Positions 13,805 through 15,079 of a stretch of DNA of 64,000 nt are shown one piece after another (the first letter of the stretch is position 1; each line of letters opens with the position of its first letter). The DNA is from Mycobacterium sp. DL592 (GTDB taxonomy: Bacteria; Actinomycetota; Actinomycetes; Mycobacteriales; Mycobacteriaceae), in the NCBI RefSeq assembly GCF_011694515.1, contig NZ_CP050192.1, positions 3,358,172-3,422,171 of the forward strand. Direction: 5' to 3'. A program made the position numbers and the translations under genes. The notes beneath the pieces were generated by a model. The model had not been told where the DNA came from, searched no databases, and saw nothing but the letters and a program-made list of their open reading frames with translations.

Positions 13805-14281
13805 TCAGCCTGCGACAAGACGGTTGGCGCAGGCGATCACGGCGCGCAACGCCGACTGGGTGGGGTCCTCGGCCCAGCCCATCGCCCACCGGTCGTGGCG
13901 GCCGTTGGCACCCCTGACGAAGGTGGCGGTGTGCGCACCGGATTGCAGTTGGTGGAAGGCCATCATCTCCACGCCGATGCCGCGCTCGTAGAGCATCGCG
14001 GTCAGCGCGGCGAGCGGTCCACTGGCCTGGGCGATCGCCGTTTCGATGCGATCGCCGAGCGCCAGGGTGGCGCGGAAGGTGTGGGCCTGCGCACCGCACC
14101 TGCTCGATGGCCGGCCGGCCTGGTCGGACTCCCAGGTGCCGAGCCGAACCGGGCCCGAGCTGGGGCTGTACCGGGCGATGAACGCACTCCAGGACAGGGT
14201 TGCGGCGTCTTCGCGCACGCCGTGCGGTAGCGGCGCGCAGAACCGTGGCGACGGATCCGGGATGGTGGTGATGGGGCTCAT
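13805..14281 (-). CDS. orphan 2-isopropylmalate synthase regulatory (LeuA allosteric) domain protein
   Basis: 158 residues from ATG at 14281, preceded by the purine run GAGAAG. After an N-terminal segment resembling the LeuA linker (SAFIARYSPSSGPVRLG), the rest aligns with the C-terminal leucine-sensing domain of LeuA: a strand like ATLALGDRIE, then SGPLAALTAMLYERGI, FHQLQSG, a W-A-M-G-W strand, and ALRAVIACANRL. The catalytic TIM barrel of LeuA is entirely absent. The role is unknown: it could be a leucine sensor or a partner of the real LeuA. The upstream region has a leader peptide and hairpins (see 14292-14402). Confidence 0.8.
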   Translation of the reverse strand: MSPITTIPDPSPRFCAPLPHGVREDAATLSWSAFIARYSPSSGPVRLGTWESDQAGRPSSRCGAQAHTFRATLALGDRIETAIAQASGPLAALTAMLYERGIGVEMMAFHQLQSGAHTATFVRGANGRHDRWAMGWAEDPTQSALRAVIACANRLVAG

Positions 14282-14291
14282 GATGCGGTCT

Positions 14292-14388
14292 TCTCGTAGT
14301 ACTCGAGGGGACCGACGTCGGCGCAGCTGATGACCCACAGCGGGGGGTCGGTCTGGATCAGACCCCGCTGTGGGTTGCTACTACGAGA
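14292..14388 (-). promoter_or_regulatory. structured mRNA leader (attenuator-like) of the LeuA-domain gene
   Basis: On the minus strand, TCTCGTAGTA (14388-14379) is perfectly complementary to TACTACGAGA (14301-14292), which overlaps the ribosome-binding region of the LeuA-domain gene. Enclosed is a second perfect 13-bp stem, ACCCACAGCGGGG (14375-14363) with CCCCGCTGTGGGT (14345-14333), whose loop holds a five-base-pair hairpin. The left strand of the outer stem contains the Leu-Val-Val codons of the upstream leader peptide. A ribosome stalled there would free the ribosome-binding site, which is the logic of translational attenuation. Confidence 0.6.
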
Positions 14389-14402
14389 CGCGCACTATGC
14401 AC
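14358..14402 (-). CDS. putative leaderless leader peptide of 14 residues
   Basis: GTG-initiated frame of 14 codons and TGA, reading M-H-S-A-R-L-V-V-A-T-H-S-G-V. The central Leu-Val-Val codons (CTC GTA GTA) lie exactly in the strand that can pair with the ribosome-binding site of the downstream LeuA-domain gene. No Shine-Dalgarno is present, but a TACCAT -10 element ends eight bases before the GTG, so transcription would start on or next to it. Leaderless GTG starts are common in mycobacteria. Coding status is inferred, not shown. Confidence 0.45.
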   Translation of the reverse strand: MHSARLVVATHSGV

Positions 14403-14410
14403 GGTCGCCG

Positions 14411-14440
14411 ATGGTAGACCTCGCCGCGACGGCGGTGCAA
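14411..14440 (-). promoter_or_regulatory. putative SigA-type promoter for the LeuA-domain leader
   Basis: TTGCAC (14440-14435) and TACCAT (14416-14411) with an 18-base spacer on the minus strand. Both fit mycobacterial housekeeping elements (TTGNNN and TANNNT). The predicted transcription start falls at about 14402-14404, the first codon of the leader peptide. Confidence 0.4.
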
Positions 14441-14488
14441 ACGGGTTTCGGAAGCCCCGCCCACCTTCATCGAATCTTCATCGAACGA

Positions 14489-15079
14489 CTAGCGAAAGCC
14501 CCGCCAGCGGCGGCAACCCTCGAAGAACAGGACGTGCGGCGCGCCGCCGCGCGTACCCGACCGAGAGGACCCCATCACGATGGACACCCGTTCGGCGGGT
14601 GCGGCACCGGTGGTCTGCGGCGCTCTGCGGGGCCGCCGCAGCATCGCCTGAACGCGGGCAACGAGTTCGCGGGGGCTGAACGGCTTGGTCATGTAGTCGT
14701 CGGCGCCCACCGACAGCCCGACGATGGTGTCCACCTCGGTGTCCCGTGCGGTCAGCATTACGACGTAGGCGTCGGAGAATGTTCGCAGCTGGCGGCAGAC
14801 CTCCAACCCGTCGATACCGGGCAGGCTCAGGTCGAGGATCACCACATCGGGGTCGCACTCCCGGGCCAGGCGCAGAGCGTCGGTTCCGTCGGCCGCAGAG
14901 GTCACCTCGAAGTGTTCCCGCGTGAGATAGGCGGCGACGACTTCGGCCAGGGCGATCTCGTCGTCGACGACGAGTGCCCGATGACTGGCCGCTGTGGTCT
15001 CTCTAGGAGTCTCCGAGCGAGTCGATCGCCGTCTGCAGTTTGGCGCCGACCTCGTCGGCGACCGGCCGCAGTGCCGCAT
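14489..15079 (-). CDS. receiver-only response regulator, effector domain missing
   Basis: A complete CheY-like receiver: acidic pair in VVDDE, phospho-acceptor Asp in VVILDLSLPGIDG, Thr in VMLTARD, and Lys in MTKPFSPRELVARV, an OmpR-subfamily pattern. The winged-helix domain expected next is absent; about 45 residues of unrelated sequence follow and then a stop. No ATG, GTG or TTG lies between the DUF302 stop and the receiver. The first usable start (15079) is inside the DUF302 gene, so the protein would carry an odd 35-residue lead. Either a stand-alone receiver or a decayed regulator. No histidine kinase is nearby. Confidence 0.65.
   Translation of the reverse strand: MRHCGRSPTRSAPNCRRRSTRSETPRETTAASHRALVVDDEIALAEVVAAYLTREHFEVTSAADGTDALRLARECDPDVVILDLSLPGIDGLEVCRQLRTFSDAYVVMLTARDTEVDTIVGLSVGADDYMTKPFSPRELVARVQAMLRRPRRAPQTTGAAPAERVSIVMGSSRSGTRGGAPHVLFFEGCRRWRGFR

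Follow-up and report, generated by a model that had tools for sequence, protein, structure and literature searches.

A candidate LEU-type attenuator with conserved valine codons upstream of a stand-alone LeuA regulatory-domain gene in Mycobacterium

Results

Leader locus in Mycobacterium sp. DL592

The window analyzed here is a 64,000-nucleotide stretch of the Mycobacterium sp. DL592 genome. On its minus strand, a short gene is preceded by a compact leader (Table 1). Inspection of 14292..14440 found all features named in a preliminary description at the places given for them: a -35/-10 pair upstream of a GTG codon, a 14-codon upstream frame (uORF) with adjacent Leu-Val-Val codons, a 13-bp stem, and ten bases over these codons that are complementary to the ribosome site. 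In minus-strand order, TTGCAC (14440-14435) is followed after 18 nt by TACCAT (14416-14411) and, after a further 8 nt, by the GTG at 14402. The uORF (14402-14358) reads GTG CAT AGT GCG CGT CTC GTA GTA GCA ACC CAC AGC GGG GTC TGA. The leader folds with z = -4.16 relative to 200 shuffles. In a search of Rfam no family reached the gathering threshold, and the two matches obtained were at chance level (E 0.57 and 3).

Just upstream of the leader, 14489-15079 (minus strand) encodes a receiver domain of the response-regulator type; no DNA-binding domain was recognised in it, and it is possibly a remnant. In a related locus (L306, 1139-1597 and neighbours), a gene that we take to encode a cytochrome P450 lies downstream of the lone gene in convergent orientation, as in the window, and a frame ending just upstream of the leader presumably encodes a CobW-like GTPase.

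Table 1. Features of the leader and its downstream gene in the window
Feature	Position	Strand	Remarks
A-rich block upstream of -35, putative WhiB7-type motif	14446..14448	-	A/T at -8 to -5
-35, TTGCAC	14435..14440	-	TTGC in 144/144 genus leaders with called start, spacer 17-19 nt
-10, TACCAT	14411..14416	-	TANNNT ending 6-10 nt before uORF start in 144/145 distinct leaders
Putative leaderless uORF, 14 codons, MHSARLVVATHSGV*	14358..14402	-	
10-bp helix, 5' strand	14379..14388	-	present in window; exact form not conserved
Val-Val codons, GTA GTA	14379..14384	-	near-constant in genus
P2 5' arm, CGTAGT as folded in window (arm counted in relatives: 14377-14384)	14380..14385	-	MFE; other-genus covariation
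P3 5' arm	14363..14375	-	98.6% of cells paired in A1
GACCGAC, P3 loop, pseudoknot 5' strand	14347..14353	-	100% of cells paired in A1
P3 3' arm	14333..14345	-	paired with 14363..14375
P2 3' arm, GCTGCG	14322..14327	-	MFE
GUCGGUC, shared strand: pseudoknot 3' strand or P4 5' arm	14310..14316	-	
10-bp helix, 3' strand	14292..14301	-	present in window; exact form not conserved
SD-like GAGAAG, inside P4	14290..14295	-	serves ATG at 14281
GACCG at RBS, P4 3' arm	14286..14290	-	P4 92.6% of cells paired in A1
Stand-alone LeuA regulatory-domain protein (predicted fold), 158 aa	13805..14281	-	AlphaFold2 pLDDT 87.5; 3fig_A E 2.4e-8

A stand-alone LeuA regulatory domain

The product of the downstream gene was modelled with AlphaFold2 (pTM 0.83). 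The best PDB match of the model was Leu-bound LeuA of M. tuberculosis, followed by the isoleucine-bound regulatory domain of citramalate synthase, and profile comparison pointed to 1sr9/3fig (E about 1e-7). The window protein scored 18.6 bits against PF08502 (LeuA allosteric domain), which is under the cut-off of 24.9; 23 of its 25 aligned relatives matched this family at E<=0.01. The predicted fold is that of the LeuA regulatory domain, and its match bears out the earlier designation of the gene. Some sources name the relatives 'homocitrate synthase', others 'hypothetical protein'; the former name is doubtful because 158 aa leave no room for a catalytic domain. A widespread protein that goes by these names is now identified from its predicted fold as a lone LeuA regulatory domain.

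Protein matches (full-length leuA included) were detected in 144 of 148 genus genomes. As the preliminary description had proposed, we searched related mycobacterial genomes for the leader: its core was present, within two mismatches, upstream of the same gene at 158 of 159 loci, giving 145 distinct leaders. These loci comprise lone-gene matches and named loci, so that some genes were entered twice, once from each of two sources, and two lone-gene matches (G033, near a contig end, and G048, a partial match) were not fetched. L129 (G060) is the sole locus without the core in the fetched stretch. Among 121 genomes of the order, the listed short stand-alone frames (<=201 aa) all belonged to this family; in other families, the frames among the matches listed were at least 561 aa long, except one of 377 aa (G458).

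Upstream frame and its valine codons

An in-frame start codon with TANNNT ending 6-10 nt before it was found in all but one of the distinct leaders (GTG in 123, ATG in 20, TTG in 1), and each of these 144 also had TTGC 17-19 nt before the -10. The conservation of start, -10 and TTGC strongly implies that the uORF is leaderless, with the transcript starting at its first codon (14402 in the window). A simple sigma-70 scan did not call the promoter of the leader, although TTGC/TANNNT is conserved.

The constant codons are those for Val (GUA), not Leu. Adjacent Val codons occurred in 143 of 144 genus uORFs; among these, the first of the two was GTA in 142 uORFs and the second in 141. Elsewhere GTA is rare (2 of 115 Val codons in six window genes). 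Immediately before Val-Val, Leu was the commonest residue (85 of 143), followed by Ala (33) and Val (20); the remaining 5 uORFs had Phe, Pro or Asp. Of the conservation proposed earlier for Leu-Val-Val, the Val-Val part holds and the Leu part does not; Leu was found anywhere in the peptide in 141 of 144 uORFs. Most genus peptides end in VVA(S)T[R/H]SGV. In other genera, GTA was present in frame in 50 of 50 uORFs and Val-Val in 43. The third base of the first GTA can also pair in helix P2 (see below). Its P2 partner is absent in 24 of 63 leaders of the genus alignment A1, and the A is retained in 23 of these 24, which points to selection on the codon itself and not only on pairing.

The end of the uORF was more variable outside the genus, where 5 of 50 frames stopped early, 15-17 nt before the P3 loop, and one ran past it. 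The early stops (L229, L255, L257, L261 and L264) are TAG or TAA inside P3; in L288 the uORF continues in another frame. The RNA core is kept in all six.

Promoter and possible WhiB7 input

Upstream of the -35, the genus leaders carry a block of A/T at positions -8, -7, -6 and -5 (63, 89, 89 and 63% of 144 leaders, respectively). The leuA promoters averaged 30% A/T in the same block (30 loci, fixed spacer of 18), and promoters of other genera showed 26-47% (n=47), i.e., no enrichment. By this motif-like composition, the genus promoters of the lone gene look WhiB7-type. According to PMC10727445, the WhiB7 motif is AT-rich and sits 3 bp before the -35. Regulon promoters and the genus promoters share such a block just a few bases ahead of the -35; its distance is 3 nt there, whereas here it ends 4 nt before TTG.

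Several reports on M. abscessus concern MAB_3424c. Tabulated data of PMC10727445 place a WhiB7 ChIP-seq peak (2.04 in the fold column) upstream of this gene, named there '2-isopropyl malate synthase'. In the whiB7 regulon section of PMC8191103, BB28_RS17050/MAB_3424c is 'hypothetical', has no M. tuberculosis counterpart and is 3.2-fold up. Ribo-seq data in the text of PMC4974804 revealed a ribosome-protected uORF upstream of MAB_3424c (leuA). MAB_3424c is probably the orthologue of the lone LeuA-domain gene, an identity of locus tags that we infer because M. abscessus has a 149-aa homolog named both 'hypothetical protein' and '2-isopropylmalate synthase', and because leuA and the lone gene are far apart in G050, which by its leader resembles a relative of the M. 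abscessus group. One statement counts against it: according to the text of PMC4974804, its uORFs, that of MAB_3424c included, resemble orthologue uORFs in M. smegmatis and M. tuberculosis; for a gene that M. tuberculosis lacks, such a resemblance could only refer to the leuA uORF. The ChIP-seq and Ribo-seq reports mostly fit the interpretation developed below. In the same M. abscessus ChIP-seq data (PMC10727445, as tabulated), valS, the valyl-tRNA synthetase gene, also has a WhiB7 peak. Apart from mentions of MAB_3424c, a literature search, mostly of papers available without subscription, returned no report of a leader of a stand-alone LeuA domain.

Conserved RNA helices

Helices were scored in two alignments. 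A1 holds 66 of the 145 distinct genus leaders, retained by a similarity filter from loci found through the protein. A3 holds 40 of 50 leaders from other genera; L236, L254, L255, L257, L261, L264, L271, L281, L284 and L288 were dropped for start, frame, length or duplication. The 50 were high-scoring R1 matches and are biased toward the P2/P3 model, in which pseudoknot and P4 are not pairs.

In A1, P3 (98.6% of cells paired) and the pseudoknot (100%) showed little variation, and covariation was slight: double changes were seen at 3 pairs, a score reached in 39 of 500 shuffles. In A3, 28 double changes were counted in P2 and the pseudoknot combined, whereas shuffles averaged 11.6 and none of 500 reached this number; pairing was 95.2% vs 23.1-44.7% for slid versions. 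Most of these changes (25 of 28) were in P2, whose support is somewhat circular because A3 was gathered by a model holding P2 and P3 as pairs. The remaining 3 were in the pseudoknot, which was 98.6% paired with an AU/GC exchange at one pair.

P4 joins the shared strand GUCGGUC to the ribosome site. It was paired in 92.6% of cells in A1 vs 6.9-61.1% in slid controls, and no P4 covariation was found in these 66 genus leaders. In A3 the figure was 84.0%; the fifth pair was UA in 11, CG in 5, UG in 2 and unpaired in 22 of the 40. All 195 leaders were folded to their MFE structures (median -11.9 kcal/mol; z had a median of -2.1). In 188 of them, the GGUC part of the shared strand was paired with bases no more than 18 nt from the start codon (144 of 145 in the genus and 44 of 50 elsewhere, the other 6 of 50 not pairing against the RBS); a looser criterion, any partner, gave 193 of 195. 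Because GUCGGUC is needed by both pseudoknot and P4, the two are mutually exclusive and could form a switch. At the level of sequence and energy, the leader thus has alternative folds predicted to mask or open the RBS.

The preliminary description had placed the switch elsewhere. In the window, all 10 bases of TCTCGTAGTA (14388-14379) can pair with TACTACGAGA (14301-14292), a segment overlapping the SD-like GAGAAG, and this complementarity was not equalled in 100 mononucleotide shuffles. Its exact form is not conserved: across 66 leaders 47.0% of cells were paired vs 35.2-45.3% in slid versions, and 499 of 500 shuffles scored as high. Pairing so near the slid controls rules the helix out as a conserved switch. 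In L033, the closest relative with DNA examined, just its inner part (6 bp, TCTCGT/ACGAGA) is found again. Of the two stems proposed earlier for comparison across genomes, the inner one of 13 bp (P3, 14375-14363 with 14345-14333) was kept across the genus and the outer one was not.

Ribosome blocking was then modelled on nested folds. The mean unpaired fraction of the SD was 0.27 with a ribosome stalled on Val, 0.25 for naked RNA and 0.25 with the ribosome at the stop (n = 144). Stalling therefore gave no opening of the ribosome site through blocked codon bases, as had been envisaged; this null result counts against the simple version and led to the idea of competition between pseudoknot and P4. 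When the pseudoknot took the shared strand, SD openness rose from 0.27 to 0.50 and was higher in 130 of 144 leaders. Pseudoknot and P4 states were close in energy, with a median difference of -2.8 kcal/mol; no pseudoknot penalty was charged, an omission that favours the pseudoknot state.

Sister leaders of leuA

The DL592 genome carries a full-length leuA elsewhere (615-aa frame) with an element of its own. The leuA leader encodes VQRVLLLGRRDGV, has its -10 at 8 nt, a distance matching that of the lone-gene leader, and the same GGGGTCTGA end as the lone-gene uORF; by inspection, P3 and pseudoknot are also similar. A Leu-Leu-Leu peptide was encoded at 27 of 30 genus leuA loci by strict core match (L184, L195 and L197 excepted), and a loose match (<=9/33 substitutions) gave a start with -10 in 30 of 30. 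These 30 loci served for promoters and 29 for the RBS hairpin; the shared strand paired near the start codon in 28 of the 29 (loose criterion).

A covariance model of the leader, based on 66 sequences from the lone gene, was run on the family and matched 264 of 301 genomes, representing 27 of 31 genera. Among the matches, 54 loci were tested, and each contained either the lone gene or leuA; 12 of one set of 42 matches had no locus and lay outside this test. In other genera, lone-gene uORFs mostly encode M[K/Q]RxLVVxRRSGV and leuA uORFs mostly M[Q/L]RxLLLxxR[DG]GV. Three other-genus genomes (loci L243, L247 and L248) have a second, more divergent leuA (58-60% identity across the part compared), which also matches the leader model.

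Discussion

A possible switch

We consider it fairly probable that the leader is a Val/Leu-responsive translational attenuator of the LEU-element kind, either duplicated from the leuA leader or sharing a common ancestor with it. Part of this best explanation is that a LEU-type leader was recoded from Leu-Leu-Leu to Leu- or Ala-Val-Val. The sequence shows the uORF with its codons, P2, P3, the pseudoknot and P4; the start site, stalling, the direction of the response and the response to amino acids are inferred, and the scheme would operate as follows. Transcription would start at the uORF start codon, and ribosomes would load directly on the 5' end. With Val-tRNA (usually together with Leu-tRNA) plentiful, the ribosome would reach the stop codon and cover the P3 loop GACCGAC; the pseudoknot would be blocked, the free GUCGGUC could pair with GACCG at the ribosome site (P4), and translation would be off. 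With Val-tRNA short, the ribosome would pause at GUA, 27-32 nt upstream of the loop, leaving the upper part of P3 and the pseudoknot free to form; with GUCGGUC consumed in this way, the ribosome site would open, and the stand-alone LeuA domain would be made. In the genus, a WhiB7-type promoter may add transcriptional induction under translation stress, with WhiB7 control presumed for DL592.

The spacing is consistent with this scheme: every one of the 144 genus leaders has its stop codon starting 6-8 nt ahead of the loop strand, and the last GTA lies 27-32 nt before that strand, so that a ribosome should cover the loop at the stop and not at the Val codons. The early stops and the single frame running on in other genera indicate that this geometry is not universal. 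Overall, the data support the earlier proposal of a leaderless leader peptide in an architecture fit for translational attenuation.

It is possible, though rather unlikely, that the LEU-type RNA is a protein-binding or structural element whose uORF codons matter only as RNA, which would extend the 2005 proposal for leuA. The RNA is more conserved than the peptide requires, the uORF end is shifted in 6 of 50 other-genus leaders, and codon mutants cited in the text of PMC1262725 lacked the expected effect. However, start, -10 distance and GUA codons are retained in leaders that differ around them, GUA persists where its P2 partner is lost, and Leu-Leu-Leu vs Leu-Val-Val mostly tracks the downstream gene across genera. 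In several genera, the sister RNAs retain Leu-Leu-Leu where leuA follows and Leu-Val-Val or Ala-Val-Val where the lone domain follows. This argues that the codons matter, and the exchange, as seen in the sequences, is the main argument for attenuation against the interpretation given in PMC1262725. The leaders of the lone gene and leuA also provide a clean pair for testing codon specificity.

Less likely still is transcription attenuation, in which the uORF would govern termination inside the leader. The genus has an example of such attenuation in ilvB1NC, a branched-chain amino acid operon of M. tuberculosis (text of PMC13236596), but no intrinsic terminator-like site was found in 14200-14700, P3 has no T run after it, and the conserved competition sits at the ribosome site. 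Direct pairing of the Leu-Val-Val codons to the ribosome site, with unmasking by stalling, is very improbable despite the perfect 10 bp in the window, since this helix is not conserved, stalling opens no SD in nested folds, and helices from the 5' part to the RBS (p<=0.05 vs shuffles) were found in 36 of 145 leaders at differing places; other base helices of this kind (GTGCCG/CGGCAC, GTCTTCTC/GAGAAGAC) suggest that a base stem may add masking.

If the lone-gene leader is a translational attenuator, a two-sensor circuit could be envisaged, which we regard as speculative and more likely wrong than right by a wide measure. In this circuit, sister RNA switches would open leuA when leucine is short and the lone domain when valine is short; the latter would join LeuA subunits and brake the enzyme, the common precursor ketoisovalerate would go to valine and pantothenate and not to leucine, and WhiB7 would be a general translation-stress input.

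Comparison with known systems

Canestrari and colleagues reportedly described in 2020 leaderless polycysteine sORFs of mycobacteria that act as attenuators at cysteine genes. Both those sORFs and the uORF studied here are leaderless short frames proposed as amino-acid-responsive attenuators; the codons there are for Cys and the genes are cysteine genes. The ilvB1NC uORF of M. tuberculosis has LVVI codons, works with a Rho-independent terminator and senses charged tRNA, according to the text of PMC13236596. It shares branched-chain codons with the present uORF, but acts by transcription termination, whereas no terminator hairpin with a T run was found here.

The closest relative is the LEU element, predicted upstream of actinobacterial leuA by Seliverstov et al. 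in 2005 (PMC1262725), so the earlier statement that no such system had been described overlooked it. The present leader appears to be a paralogue of this element. The text of that paper mentions an alternative hairpin and cites Leu-codon mutants of S. coelicolor leuA with no effect, or with effects unlike classical attenuation; it takes these mutants as evidence against attenuation and suggests a bound protein. The action of the element was thus left open in 2005, when the codon-mutant evidence spoke against attenuation. Both the LEU element and the present leader occur in Actinobacteria and have a short uORF and a pseudoknot. The pseudoknot is equated with the published one by position and pairing, and its competition with the RBS hairpin is our interpretation, set beside the text of the paper. 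The LEU element also has a base stem toward the SD; a stem between codon run and SD is 10 bp in the window and clade-specific and shifting elsewhere. The element of that paper has a run of Leu codons and precedes leuA, whereas the window leader has Leu-Val-Val and precedes a stand-alone 158-aa domain. The kind of leader is therefore already known; what is new is the gene that it precedes, its codons and the switch proposed for it.
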